Source: a bacterium (GTDB lineage: Bacteria > Patescibacteriota > Minisyncoccia > Minisyncoccales > UBA10102). Taken from it: a stretch of DNA of 39,665 nt. The notes beneath the pieces are model-generated. The model worked only from the letters and a program-made list of their open reading frames with translations. It had not been told where the DNA came from and made no database searches. Location: positions 1-39,665 of the forward strand of contig JAUYMI010000014.1 in the NCBI GenBank assembly GCA_030698665.1, in the 5' to 3' direction. Both the position numbers and the translations under genes were made by a program. This document shows, piece by piece, positions 19,921 to 34,962 of this stretch (the stretch's first letter is position 1; each line of letters starts with the position of its first letter).

Positions 19921-20370
19921 CTAGCGGCACTGCAGCTCCCAGTACTGAGCACCCGCCTTGAACTCTACTACCCCGAGCTTCTCAAAGCCGAAGTTGAGGA
20001 AGAGCCAGGATCCATAGATGATGATGAGGCCGACAACCGCGGCTGTGATGATTGCCTTGCCTCGCTTGAGGCCCGCAGGATCCCCGCTCCCACCTCCCTG
20101 GAGGAGCTCGGCCGGAGAGGCGCCCCCCGTGATGAAGAAGAATCCTCCGATAACGAGCATGAGCGTTGCTATGGCGGGAACGATGGCAATTCCTCCATTG
20201 AGCGAAGGAGATGGAATGAGAAAGAACTTGATAACGTTGTTGACGAGCACGAAAACGTCGCAGAGTCCGCAGGCAGGTTGATTGGCTCCTCCACAGGGAA
20301 CCAAGCCCTGTGCCCACGCGGTAAGAGGGACGAGAGCGAGGACTGCTAGTATGAGAAGTGTTTTTTTCAT
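19921..20370 (-). CDS. VirB2/pilin-like small membrane protein
   Basis: MKKTLLILAVLALVPLTAWAQGLVPCGG...; signal peptide + TMs; start chosen at MKK rather than the longer ORF. Confidence 0.7.
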   Translation of the reverse strand: MKKTLLILAVLALVPLTAWAQGLVPCGGANQPACGLCDVFVLVNNVIKFFLIPSPSLNGGIAIVPAIATLMLVIGGFFFITGGASPAELLQGGGSGDPAGLKRGKAIITAAVVGLIIIYGSWLFLNFGFEKLGVVEFKAGAQYWELQCR

Positions 20371-20378
20371 CCTTTTTG

Positions 20379-20450
20379 TGCCCCCGGCAGGACTCGAACC
20401 CACAATAACGGCTTCGAAGGCCGTCGTGATATCCATTTCACCACGGGGGC
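20379..20450 (-). tRNA. tRNA-Arg(TCG), CCA not encoded
   Basis: Loop CTTCGAA, stem ACGGC/GCCGT, acceptor GCCCCCG/CGGGGGC. Confidence 0.93.
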
Positions 20451-20515
20451 CCGCCTCCTTGAGAAATCATACCACAGAAATTGAAAAACTCAACGAAGTC
20501 AGATACGATGGGTTA

Positions 20516-21976
20516 ATGAAGGCGATTCCCAAAGAAGTCAGGGAGGTGGTCAAGGATCTAGAGAGAGGCGGATATGAGGCCTTCATTGTGGGCGGATGCG
20601 TGAGAGATCTTCTGCTCGGGCGAGAGCCCAAGGATTGGGACGTTGCCACCTCGGGGAAGCCAGAAGAGGTCCAGAAGCTCTTCCCCGACTCATTTTACGA
20701 AAACCGTTTCTTCACCGTTACGGTGCTCAAAGAGAGCAGAAAGAAAAATCTCAAGGAGATTGAGGTGACCACGTACCGTTCTGAGTCAGGATATGCCGAC
20801 TACCGGCGCCCGGATGAGGTTAAGGCGGTCAAGACCATTGAGGAAGATCTCTCAAGGAGGGACTTTGCCATCAATGCCATGGCGCTGAGGGTCAAGGCGC
20901 GAGGATCTGAGATGATTGACCCCTTTGGTGGGCAGGCTGACGTTGGCAACAAAATCATCCGGGCGGTTGGCAAGCCTAAAGAGCGATTTGAGGAAGACGC
21001 CCTGCGGATGATGAGGGCGGTGCGGTTGGCTTCGGAGCTTGGATTTGAAATTGAGAGTGAAACGAGAGACGCCATATCAATCTCCTCTCATTTGCTAGAG
21101 AAGATCTCAGCTGAGCGTATCCGGGACGAGTTTTGCCGCATCCTCATGTCGGATCTCGCCATGGAGGGGGTTGAGCTTCTGCGGGAGCTTGGTCTGCTCA
21201 GGAGATTTCTTCCCGAGCTGGAAGAGGGGTATGGCGTAGGTCAGAATAAGCATCATGTGTACACGGTGTGGGAGCACAATCTTTTGGCCCTTCAGTACGC
21301 ATGCGGTCAGAAGTGGTCTCTTGAAGTCCGGCTGGCCTCCCTGCTCCACGATGTGGCAAAGCCGAGGGTGAAGAATGGAGACGGGTACAATTCCACTTTC
21401 TACAACCATGAGGTGGAGGGAGGCAAGATGGCAAAGACGATACTGAACCGCCTAAAGTTTTCCAAAAAGCAGGTGGAGAAGATCTCAAAGCTCGTGCGCT
21501 TCCACCTTTTCTACTACAACGTGGATGAGGTGTCGGAGTCCTCGGTCAGGCGTTTGGTGAGAAACGTGGGAGCAGAAGACATGGACGACCTCCTGCGCGT
21601 GAGGATGGCTGACCGCATCGGCTCTGGGGTTCCCAAGGCTGAACCCTATAAGCTCAGACATCTAAAGTATCTCATTGAAAAGGTATCTCAAGACCCGATA
21701 TCCGTTTCACGGCTCAAGATCAGAGGAGAGCGCATCATGGAGCTTCTCAAGATTTCCCCGGGCCCACAGGTAGGGCAGATATCAGATATCCTTCTATCTG
21801 AGGTTGTGGAGAATCCTAAGAGCAACACCGTTTCATATTTGGAGCAAAGGATAGCTGAATTGAGCCAACTGAGCGGTAAGGAACTTTCGCAAACGGCTCT
21901 GAATGCGCGCTCCCAGGTAGGGAAGCTGGAAACGAAGTCAGATGAGATGATAAAACAGAAGTACTGGGTGAGTTAA
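20516..21976 (+). CDS. cca: CCA tRNA nucleotidyltransferase with HD domain
   Basis: FIVGGCVRDLLLGREPKDWDVATSG, RRDFAINAMAL, HVYTVWEHNLLAL, LASLLHDVAKP; start taken at ATG 20516. Confidence 0.93.
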   Translation: MKAIPKEVREVVKDLERGGYEAFIVGGCVRDLLLGREPKDWDVATSGKPEEVQKLFPDSFYENRFFTVTVLKESRKKNLKEIEVTTYRSESGYADYRRPDEVKAVKTIEEDLSRRDFAINAMALRVKARGSEMIDPFGGQADVGNKIIRAVGKPKERFEEDALRMMRAVRLASELGFEIESETRDAISISSHLLEKISAERIRDEFCRILMSDLAMEGVELLRELGLLRRFLPELEEGYGVGQNKHHVYTVWEHNLLALQYACGQKWSLEVRLASLLHDVAKPRVKNGDGYNSTFYNHEVEGGKMAKTILNRLKFSKKQVEKISKLVRFHLFYYNVDEVSESSVRRLVRNVGAEDMDDLLRVRMADRIGSGVPKAEPYKLRHLKYLIEKVSQDPISVSRLKIRGERIMELLKISPGPQVGQISDILLSEVVENPKSNTVSYLEQRIAELSQLSGKELSQTALNARSQVGKLETKSDEMIKQKYWVS

Positions 21977-21979
21977 TCT

Positions 21980-22564
21980 ATGGAGTACACGTCTGAAACA
22001 TATGCGAAGCTGAATCGCGACGACCAGAGGCACCTGCAGGAGTTGGAGGAGTTTCTGCGGCCCCTGAGAGGAGACAAGATACTGGAGGTCGGGTGCGGCC
22101 GCGGGTTCATCGCCCGCGAACTCCAGAAGACAGTTCCCCACACGTACGGAGTGGATGTGAATCCTGGGGCAATCAAGAACGGAGTGGCCTTAAACCTCCA
22201 GATCATGGATGCTGAACACCTGGAGTTTGAGGACGACAGCTTTGACAAAATCTACTCCTTCCATATGATTGAACACGTGCCCAGTCCGGGGAAGGTGATA
22301 CGTGAGATGGAGCGGGTCCTGAGGCCGGGAGGAGAGATTCTGCTCGTGTATCCTGCAGAACCGGTCCGCGGTCTCTTTTCCATCATCTCTTCCATCATCA
22401 TCTTTAAGACCCCATTCAAGGCACGCAAGATTCATCTGCACAAGCTGCGCCCATCGGATATACAGGTTCTGATCCGAGGCACGAAGCTTGAACACGTAGA
22501 GAGCAAGTTCGCGCTTCTCTCTACTCCTCAGTTCTTCACCCACCTTCAGAAGAGAACGTCATAA
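21980..22564 (+). CDS. Class I SAM-dependent methyltransferase
   Basis: ILEVGCGRGFIARELQK, FHMIEHVPSPGKVIREMERVLRPGGEILL. Confidence 0.88.
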   Translation: MEYTSETYAKLNRDDQRHLQELEEFLRPLRGDKILEVGCGRGFIARELQKTVPHTYGVDVNPGAIKNGVALNLQIMDAEHLEFEDDSFDKIYSFHMIEHVPSPGKVIREMERVLRPGGEILLVYPAEPVRGLFSIISSIIIFKTPFKARKIHLHKLRPSDIQVLIRGTKLEHVESKFALLSTPQFFTHLQKRTS

Positions 22565-22637
22565 CGGGGTGTGGCCTAGTAGCTAAGGCGCCGCGTTCGG
22601 GACGCGGAGATCGCAGGTGCAAGTCCTGTCGCCCCGA
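22565..22637 (+). tRNA. tRNA-Pro(CGG), CCA not encoded
   Basis: Stem CCGCG/CGCGG, loop TTCGGGA, acceptor CGGGGTG/CGCCCCG. Confidence 0.93.
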
Positions 22638-22650
22638 CATATATGTAGAG

Positions 22651-22669
22651 TCGCTCAAAGAGCGATTTT
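22651..22669 (+). terminator. Hairpin terminator after tRNA-Pro
   Basis: tcgctc-aaa-gagcga-tttta. Confidence 0.55.
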
Positions 22670-22688
22670 ATGTTAAAATTATATAATT

Positions 22689-23561
22689 ATGTTTGTTCAA
22701 TGTGTTGTATGCAAGAAGCACTTTTCCCGGAAGAAGAGTCAGGTTCAAGAGGCTGAAAGGTTCGGGTGGAGGGCATTCTGTTCATCAGAGTGTCAATCGT
22801 GGGCAAGGCGAAGAGGAAAAATACTTGTCTGTGAACGGGGCCAGTGCACGAAGACATTCTATCGGCCCCCAAACGATATTTCTCTCCACAACTACTGTTC
22901 GTGGTCGTGTGCCGCACGAGTGAATAACAGGAAGTTTCCGAAACGAGGGCAAGGGTTTCGTTTTTGTGCTGGTCGTCACTGCAGTAAAAAATTCTCTGGG
23001 CGTCAGAAGTACTGTTCTTTTACGTGCCGGAAAGCCGCACGGTTTTCCTACACAAAAGAAGAAGCATCGGAAATGATACGGAAAGCAAGCGAGAAACTTG
23101 GGAGGGTTCCCGCAAAAAGGGAAGTGGCGTTTGCTGACGCTTGCGCAGCCCTGTTTGGTTCTTGGAATAATGCCGTGCTTGCTGCTGGGTTAATGCCAAA
23201 TCGTTCTCATGACCATAGGATGTATAAACGCACCAATACGAAAGCGAGAGATGGGCACCTCTGCGATTCAGTCTCTGAGGCGCTCGTAGACAATTGGCTG
23301 GCAAACAGAAGCATTGCTCATAAGAGAAACGTACCCTACCCGAACACAGGTCATTTGGCTGATTGGTCTGTTGGCAGAGGAGTTTTTGTAGAATACTTTG
23401 GTCTCGCAAAGGATAGTCCACGGTATGATAGATCTGTAGTAAAGAAAAGGTTGCTTTGTCGTCAGAGCAACATCCAGCTTATTGAAATTTATGCCGAAGA
23501 CCTGTATCCTAAGCGTCGTCTGCAACAAAAGCTTAGATTCCTGATACCTTTGGGCCGTTAG
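22689..23561 (+). CDS. Putative homing-type endonuclease: CxxC zinc-finger-like repeats + homing-endonuclease-associated repeat + PD-(D/E)XK-like nuclease
   Basis: Three Cys-pair modules; LGRVPAKREVAFADACAALFGSWNNAVLAAGL; SEALVDNWL...ADWSVGRGVFVEYFG...YDRSVVKKRLL; between two tRNAs, stop codon inside tRNA-Ala. Confidence 0.7.
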   Translation: MFVQCVVCKKHFSRKKSQVQEAERFGWRAFCSSECQSWARRRGKILVCERGQCTKTFYRPPNDISLHNYCSWSCAARVNNRKFPKRGQGFRFCAGRHCSKKFSGRQKYCSFTCRKAARFSYTKEEASEMIRKASEKLGRVPAKREVAFADACAALFGSWNNAVLAAGLMPNRSHDHRMYKRTNTKARDGHLCDSVSEALVDNWLANRSIAHKRNVPYPNTGHLADWSVGRGVFVEYFGLAKDSPRYDRSVVKKRLLCRQSNIQLIEIYAEDLYPKRRLQQKLRFLIPLGR

Positions 23562-23627
23562 CTCAGTTGGTAGAGCGCAGCATTCGCATTGCTGAGGTCG
23601 GGAGTTCGACTCTCCCACGGTCCACCA
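23552..23627 (+). tRNA. tRNA-Ala(CGC), CCA encoded
   Basis: Stem CAGCA/TGCTG, loop TTCGCAT, G3-U70 acceptor pair. Confidence 0.94.
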
Positions 23628-30357: not shown

Positions 30358-30434
30358 GCCCCCGTGGCTCAATTGGATAGAGCAACTCCCTTCTAAGGAG
30401 TAGGTTGCAGGTTCGATTCCTGCCGGGGGTACCA
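30358..30434 (+). tRNA. tRNA-Arg(TCT), CCA encoded
   Basis: Stem ACTCC/GGAGT, loop CTTCTAA, T arm GCAGGTTCGATTCCTGC. Confidence 0.93.
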
Positions 30435-30444
30435 GGTTCCTCAT

Positions 30445-30516
30445 GGGGGCATTGGTGTAGTGGCAGCACAAGAGTTTGTGGAACTCTCGGGAGGGGTTCA
30501 AATCCCCTATGCCCCC
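30445..30516 (+). tRNA. tRNA-His(GTG), encoded G-1 and C73
   Basis: Stem AGAGT/ACTCT, loop TTGTGGA, acceptor GGGGCAT/ATGCCCC with G at -1. Confidence 0.93.
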
Positions 30517-30522
30517 CAGCAA

Positions 30523-31713: not shown

Positions 31714-31786
31714 GACCTCATAGCTCAATGGATAGAGTTCCTTTTGAAAATAAGGGAGGACGCAGGTCCGATTCCTGCCGAGGTCC
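31714..31786 (+). pseudogene. Degenerate tRNA-like sequence (Arg-family-like body)
   Basis: GACCTCA TA GCTC AATGGATA GAGT T CCTTT TGAAAAT AAGGG AGGAC GCAGG TCCGATT CCTGC CGAGGTC C: A7-C66 mismatch, no U33 in a 7-nt loop, C55, C73. Confidence 0.65.
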
Positions 31787-34883: not shown

Positions 34884-34955
34884 GGTCTGGTGCCCGAGCA
34901 GCTAGGGAACGGTCTGCAAAACCGTTTTACGCGGGTGCAAATCCCGCCCAGACCT
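34884..34955 (+). tRNA. tRNA-Cys(GCA), CCA not encoded
   Basis: Stem ACGGT/ACCGT, loop CTGCAAA, acceptor GGTCTGG/CCAGACC, U73. Confidence 0.92.
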
Positions 34956-34962
34956 CAAAGGA

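Follow-up and report, generated by a model that had tools for sequence, protein, structure and literature searches.

A probable free-standing homing endonuclease gene lodged between tRNA-Pro(CGG) and tRNA-Ala(CGC) in a Patescibacteria genome

Why should a protein-coding gene end inside a transfer RNA (tRNA) gene? The question is raised by an open reading frame (ORF) of 290 aa on contig JAUYMI010000014.1, a 39,665-nucleotide (nt) stretch of a Patescibacteria genome, the whole of which is termed the window. An earlier annotation made from the letters alone, hereafter the sequence-only reading, noted that the last codons of this ORF run into tRNA-Ala(CGC), and suggested that an insertion abutting the tRNA would account for this. 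The answer reached here is that the ORF is probably a free-standing homing endonuclease gene, and that the tRNA to which it is tied is tRNA-Pro(CGG), on its other side. The gene is inserted in the Pro|Ala junction, its family is patchily distributed, each clade of the family keeps to one tRNA, and beside relatives of the gene lie tRNA halves broken at the anticodon, with a different intact tRNA next to them.

The junction and its empty sites

The features that define the site are as follows.

20282..21976, + strand: CCA tRNA nucleotidyltransferase gene (cca), the syntenic anchor upstream of tRNA-Pro(CGG) (NF009814, 7.8e-86)
22565..22638, + strand: tRNA-Pro(CGG), the partner tRNA of the window gene's clade, with the A18/G55 loop variant (ARAGORN, Rfam)
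22639..22688, + strand: spacer from tRNA-Pro to the start codon, with a hairpin seen by eye (tcgctc-aaa-gagcga, followed by tttt) and a TATAAT-like box near the ATG
22689..23561, + strand: the ORF, encoding a homing-endonuclease-like free-standing protein of the tRNA-Pro(CGG) clade (sequence, Pfam, family tree)
23552..23561, + strand: overlap of the ORF and tRNA-Ala, 10 nt, the TAG stop being tRNA positions 8-10
23552..23627, + strand: tRNA-Ala(CGC), the downstream neighbour of the element (ARAGORN and the Rfam tRNA model)

A terminator scan of the spacer (22639..22688) was negative. Empty sites in relatives were located by anchoring on cca, tRNA-Pro itself being too divergent to serve as a BLAST query. 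In five relatives without the gene (L103, L110, L111, L126 and L115; L-numbers denote loci and G-numbers genomes throughout), the gap between tRNA-Pro(CGG) and tRNA-Ala(CGC) is 0-1 nt, compared to 913 nt in the window; the ORF therefore sits exactly in the Pro|Ala junction, and the proposed insertion against the 5' end of tRNA-Ala is borne out. Some related genomes have the gene and others lack it, its fixed site being cleanly empty in the latter, which is the distribution looked for in a homing gene. The insert in the window is one 0.9-kb gene, no integrase gene lying between the two tRNAs, and there is no sign of a group I intron at the ORF, as an Rfam scan of the window matches tRNAs alone and both flanking tRNAs are intact. 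A methyltransferase gene (window 21980-22564) lies between cca and tRNA-Pro(CGG), its stop codon directly abutting the tRNA; in several relatives tRNA-Pro directly follows cca without this gene between them.

One tRNA for each clade

The family is matched in 20/100 relatives and 51/387 genomes of the class, which is a patchy distribution. A profile search from the alignment (A2) found 38 loci in named genomes, 30 of them in Patescibacteria (mostly Parcubacteria-type, some Microgenomates-type); a single-protein scan of the genome contigs with the window protein found nothing. All 31 tree rows of the window clade adjoin the 3' end of tRNA-Pro(CGG), 17 of them codirectional and 13 convergent, the remaining row being L030, whose tRNA was missed by ARAGORN and found by eye and with nhmmer. 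The members of a second clade lie 3' of tRNA-Pro(GGG), those of a third stand divergently on the 5' side of tRNA-Pro(GGG), and those of a fourth contain tRNA-His. The third clade includes a paralogue from the window's own genome (L002, contig C13:10972-11424), which has a helix-turn-helix-like N-terminus with the same HNH_repeat and nuclease core and stands divergent beside tRNA-Pro(GGG). With a few rows at contig ends left without a label, the tRNA labels change 12 times on the family tree, compared to 31 in shuffles. The conserved linkage is thus to the upstream tRNA-Pro(CGG), which was absent from the sequence-only reading, and not to tRNA-Ala. Among members the neighbourhood varies (cca, tRNA-Val or tRNA-Arg may lie upstream) while the tRNA stays constant, and this suggests that the target is the tRNA gene. 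In the DNA fetched for eight more distant relatives, all from outside Patescibacteria, there is no tRNA.

A related group with zinc modules and an HNH-like domain, the HNH assignment being weak (Pfam HNH_3, 0.039), lies between tRNA-Arg(TCT) and tRNA-His. The window holds the unoccupied form of this site, which is used elsewhere by the HNH-like and tRNA-His clades:

30358..30517, + strand: tRNA-Arg(TCT), 11 nt, tRNA-His(GTG)

Displaced tRNA halves beside relatives

The first sign of tRNA pieces came from reading flanks by eye. A Smith-Waterman search for tRNA fragments proved too insensitive and was replaced by profiles of half tRNAs (5' and 3', split at the anticodon), run against the tRNA-masked flanks of 79 regions, a few of them redundant. 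There were 29 matches at E <= 1, 13 of them below 0.01, compared to four in a reversed control (best 0.2); the surroundings of 25 unoccupied tRNA-Pro(CGG) genes, searched with the database size matched, gave none. The breaks fall at about anticodon positions 34-37, and the positions of the matches fit insertion at the anticodon. In convergent members at tRNA-Pro(CGG) the endonuclease gene has a tRNA-Pro 3' half past its start (L033, 4e-6; L070, 4e-5; L045, 1e-3), in L032 a 3' half lies 9 nt past the stop (5e-6), and in the HNH-like group a tRNA-His 5' half lies upstream (L092, 8e-6; L093, 4e-4; L019, 9e-3). At L070 the intact tRNA-Pro is flanked by both the 5' half (2e-4) and the 3' half. Judged by loops and stems, the scar does not derive from the tRNA that is intact, from which it follows that a native tRNA has been broken and that the cell now uses another, intact one. 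Separately, L047 has several fragments resembling tRNA-Ala 3' ends about 300-560 nt past the ORF, outside the annotated tRNA-Ala(CGC).

These observations bear on the simplest alternative, viz. that this is an ordinary gene, a domesticated nuclease or DNA-binding regulator, which ends in a tRNA through genome compactness and whose tRNA linkage is inherited synteny. Other genes do overlap tRNA-Ala(CGC) in relatives, and the upstream methyltransferase gene also abuts tRNA-Pro directly. An ordinary gene is nevertheless unlikely, given its patchy presence with clean empty sites, the recurrence of the same tRNA in differing neighbourhoods and in both orientations with a tRNA of its own for each clade, and the displaced tRNA halves.

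A stop codon borrowed from a tRNA

The ORF closes with CCT TTG GGC CGT TAG, and the 10 nt common to it and tRNA-Ala(CGC), with the TAG at tRNA positions 8-10, are exactly where the sequence-only reading had placed them. An alternative tRNA-Ala start that would remove the overlap was looked for and none was found, ARAGORN and the Rfam tRNA model (67.8 bits) agreeing on 23552. TAG at positions 8-10 is common in tRNAs, so a frame that runs in at that point, whatever the gene, readily finds its stop. Among ORFs whose ends fall no more than 120 nt from a tRNA on the same strand, the stop lay inside the tRNA for 7/19 family ORFs and for 6/98 other ORFs of at least 130 aa from the same loci (Fisher p = 0.0009). 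In three of those six non-family ORFs the stop likewise falls exactly 10 nt inside tRNA-Ala(CGC), and the tRNA-supplied TAG is therefore not peculiar to the window gene; unrelated ORFs upstream of tRNA-Ala(CGC) with stops exactly 10 nt inside it stand at L104, L109 and L119.

Use of the tRNA-Ala TAG as a stop is not supported as a feature conserved among homologues. Just one clear homologue uses it, L053 (55% identical; Patescibacteria bacterium Bin_194; L003 is the same locus). Other overlaps are of 1 nt (L039), of 15 nt into tRNA-Pro(GGG) (L035) and of 15 nt into tRNA-His (L092 and L093). Most homologues have their stops elsewhere, many of them antisense to tRNA-Pro; the convergent members at L029:3870-3945 and L031:3880-3942 extend antisense through all of tRNA-Pro or through 63 nt of it, so that its antisense strand encodes their C-termini. 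The conserved part of the protein stops short of the overlap.

RNase P cleavage would, as a logical consequence, take the stop codon away from the messenger RNA. Could the borrowed stop nonetheless be functional, with RNase P removing it from a shared transcript, such that messenger and tRNA are mutually exclusive products and endonuclease output is limited? The 10-nt overlaps in the window and L053, the 15-nt overlaps in L035, L092 and L093, and the family rate of 7/19 against 6/98 are what such a device might leave, but in most members the gene stops short of the tRNA or at a distance from it, the C-terminal residues are no part of the conserved core, and we consider it quite unlikely. The stop overlap is real and somewhat enriched, yet is not a conserved function; it is a by-product of a tight junction.

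A nuclease-like core behind three cysteine modules

The domains of the protein are encoded as follows.

22701..22793, + strand: Cys module 1 (C5, C8, C31, C35), treble-clef or zinc-ribbon-like; zinc-finger matches are weak
22830..22910, + strand: Cys module 2 (C48, C53, C70, C74)
22965..23027, + strand: Cys module 3 (C93, C98, C109, C113)
23049..23192, + strand: HNH_repeat PF18780, homing-endonuclease-associated repeat, residues 121-168 (Pfam 1.6e-10, above the curated cut-off)
23271..23492, + strand: PD-(D/E)XK/Vsr-like nuclease core, residues 195-268, alpha-beta-beta-beta-alpha-beta (AlphaFold2, Foldseek)
23277-23279, 23361-23363, 23391-23393 and 23445-23447, + strand: candidate catalytic residues E197, D225, E235 and K253

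Three predictions of the sequence-only reading concerned this protein and all were upheld. The three Cys-rich modules are supported by the invariance of all 12 Cys in nine of nine close homologues, the repeat written LGRVP...FGSWNNAVLAAGL is the Pfam HNH_repeat, and the C-terminus is PD-(D/E)XK-like on the combined evidence of the AlphaFold2 core and a Foldseek match. The AlphaFold2 model (27 sequences) has a mean predicted local distance difference test score of 86.6, with a predicted template modelling (TM) score of 0.47, so that the arrangement of the domains is uncertain. Its secondary structure (helix 195-206, strands 212-216, 223-227 and 232-237, helix 244-259, strand 263-268) is that of the PD-(D/E)XK superfamily core. 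The top Foldseek match in the PDB is 3r3p, the catalytic domain of I-Bth0305I (probability 1.00, TM score 0.71 over the target, E 0.019), and viral Foldseek matches include DUF559, mismatch-endonuclease and zinc-finger proteins. A sequence search of the PDB found no nuclease; the fold search alone gave one. E197, D225, E235 and K253, the C-terminal E...D...E...K pattern, are invariant across an alignment of 18 diverse members, and in the model K253 lies in the helix after the E235 strand, so it may be a migrated catalytic lysine.

Pfam finds neither a GIY-YIG domain nor an HNH nuclease domain in the window protein, HNH_repeat being its sole match, and in the PHROG HNH match the best stretch covers the first Cys modules alone. 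PADLOC gives weak matches to PD-DEXK defence candidates, and an annotated phage collection gives one weak match, to Geobacillus virus E3.

The PADLOC matches raise the thought that the protein acts on tRNA itself, as an anticodon nuclease, toxin or tRNA-processing factor encoded beside its substrate gene. The one-to-one pairing of clade and tRNA would suit this, and breaks at the anticodon position in the nearby halves also fit an RNA target. Such a role is very unlikely all the same: genomic tRNA halves bordering the insertions record events in DNA, the fold is matched by that of a homing endonuclease acting on DNA and is accompanied by a homing-endonuclease-associated domain, and the junction has no antitoxin-like partner.

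The anticodon loop of tRNA genes is a site for integrases too, which leave the tRNA restored, and the scar geometry is similar, but that the gene is a passenger of an integrase-type element with the anticodon loop as attachment site is highly improbable, given the single 0.9-kb gene without an integrase gene and an intact tRNA wholly different from the scar rather than with one half exchanged.

Spacers, promoters and a tRNA-His in frame

In the short spacers of codirectional members nhmmer lost weak matches, and a gapless score matrix with shuffles was used instead. Ten codirectional members have at least 40 nt between tRNA-Pro and the start codon, and in eight of them a degraded tRNA-Pro 3' end lies 16-25 nt ahead of that codon (each at p <= 0.003). 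The two exceptions are the window, at p = 0.84, and L051, whose absolute score is poor (p = 0.03). Seven of the eight remnants have lost T-stem pairing (12/35 pairs, about the random rate) and retain TTCRA-N11-CCGA, the positions counted as kept being those which the score matrix seeks. This motif at the promoter may be a protein-binding site, perhaps a self-repression operator, by analogy with I-TevI, whose operator mimics its homing site (PMC2988022); alternatively, the remnants are repair scars. A TATAAT-like box stands 6-9 nt before the start codons of several members (L026, L130, L038, L039 and others), and its position suggests that transcripts of the endonuclease genes are leaderless.

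In four genomes (G059, G041, G069 and G496; loci L026/L129, L015/L127, L016/L128 and L130) an ORF of about 410 aa reads through a complete sense-strand tRNA-His gene, so that some family members would have this gene wholly within their own predicted reading frame. A profile of the ORF matches, by translation, the tRNA-His genes of many genomes, the window's included. G496 has the 5' half of another tRNA-His directly behind tRNA-Arg(TCT), and G492 has a frame-broken relative of the ORF.

A proposed mechanism

As a homing endonuclease, the window protein would bind the tRNA-Pro gene through its Cys modules and HNH_repeat, and its C-terminal PD-(D/E)XK/Vsr-like domain would break the anticodon region. 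Repair of the break from a copy of the locus carrying the element would copy tRNA and endonuclease gene together. The intact tRNA brought by the element would sustain the cell and, as a replacement, would protect it, while half of the split native gene would remain as a scar, a step that the sequence shows at related loci and not in the window. In the window, tRNA-Ala(CGC) would serve as the right-hand boundary, which the ORF enters by 10 nt, borrowing its TAG.

Several points weigh against this scheme. Cleavage of tRNA gene DNA, and transfer through break repair, are steps that we infer from sequence; for the window gene itself the observations are its clade, its position and the empty sites. 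Its spacer has no detectable tRNA-half remnant by the matrix score given above, and an anticodon cut for this gene is therefore deduced from its relatives. The 3' remnant between tRNA-Pro and the gene in the eight codirectional members is not predicted by the simplest insertion model. The best PDB E-value is just 0.019. The canonical (D/E)XK lysine is not conserved in place, E-Y-F standing at E235 instead of E-x-K, and neither is the EDxHD histidine, with no invariant His after D225 in the 18 members; membership in either named homing family is therefore not claimed.

A broader proposal is held more tentatively, as plausible: that this is a natural ‘home-and-rescue’ family, in which the endonuclease of each clade would destroy a single essential tRNA gene at its anticodon and the element would bring an intact, differently coded tRNA to take over, some members carrying tRNA-His in frame and the codirectional ones using the promoter TTCRA-N11-CCGA as a possible self-repression operator.

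Relation to known systems

The architecture resembles that of engineered home-and-rescue gene drives, here in hosts whose genomes, at 0.5-1 Mb, leave little DNA to spare. I-Ssp6803I is reportedly the homing endonuclease of a cyanobacterial tRNA-fMet group I intron. It is placed in the PD-(D/E)XK family (PMC3943268) and is likewise a nuclease of this kind acting on a tRNA gene, but it is intron-encoded and compact, whereas the window protein is free-standing with Cys modules and an HNH_repeat. The EDxHD (Vsr-like) homing endonucleases, of which I-Bth0305I provides the nearest solved fold for the C-terminal domain (3r3p), share a multi-domain layout with separate DNA-binding modules (PMC3943268); the window family differs in having no conserved motif His, in not being intronic and in being tied to tRNA genes.

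Phage T4 SegB is also encoded by a free-standing endonuclease gene between tRNA genes, in the T4 tRNA region, and drives inheritance of that region (PMC2988022). SegB is, however, a GIY-YIG enzyme whose listed target is a tRNA intergenic region (PMC2988022), while the window family is PD-(D/E)XK-like, resides in bacterial chromosomes and is accompanied by tRNA halves broken at the anticodon. In the mobile endonuclease ORFs (mORFs) of fungal mitochondria, for example in Allomyces atp6 and Glomus atp6, cox2 and nad3, an endonuclease ORF enters an essential gene and brings a replacement part, leaving the native 3' part displaced beyond the ORF (PMC3630166). Those are protein genes in mitochondria, with LAGLIDADG or GIY-YIG enzymes, whereas the target here is a tRNA and in L070 the whole tRNA has apparently been replaced. 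LAGLIDADG endonucleases of ribosomal RNA introns in Patescibacteria (PMC11809585, PMC10714607) invade RNA genes in the same bacterial group, but do so in spliced introns, and the window site has no intron.

The open-access papers searched hold no description of tRNA-linked homing endonucleases in Patescibacteria, nor any bacterial description of free-standing nucleases that break and replace a tRNA gene at the anticodon, and novelty is accordingly provisional. If the proposal is true, selfish elements have exchanged some tRNA genes of Patescibacteria, with consequences for tRNA evolution and for tRNA-based phylogeny or annotation, in a group of genes otherwise well known as integrase landing sites. 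Because its predicted target is tRNA-Pro(CGG) DNA, the proposal lends itself to a direct test in vitro.

tRNA variants

The A18/G55 variant of tRNA-Pro(CGG) belongs to a wider set. Wherever G55 replaces U55 in the T-loop (TGC), the D-loop GG is also lost (A18), in 30/30 tRNAs, and the GG is retained in all 203 parsed tRNAs with TTC, TCC or CTC; an A18-G55 tertiary pair in place of G18-U55 is suggested by this covariation. Such tRNAs occur in the window at 22565-22638 and 34884-34956 and at many fetched loci, among Pro(CGG), Pro(GGG), His, Arg(CCT) and Cys tRNAs and not among Ala(CGC), Arg(TCG) or Lys. The variant was considered as a resistance allele marking occupied loci, an idea that in this form found no support (14/31 occupied compared to 6/25 unoccupied, p = 0.16). 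At window 31714-31786 ARAGORN reports a tRNA with a four-base anticodon (gaaa), to which Rfam gives just 38 bits; it may be a tRNA-Phe whose anticodon loop is enlarged.
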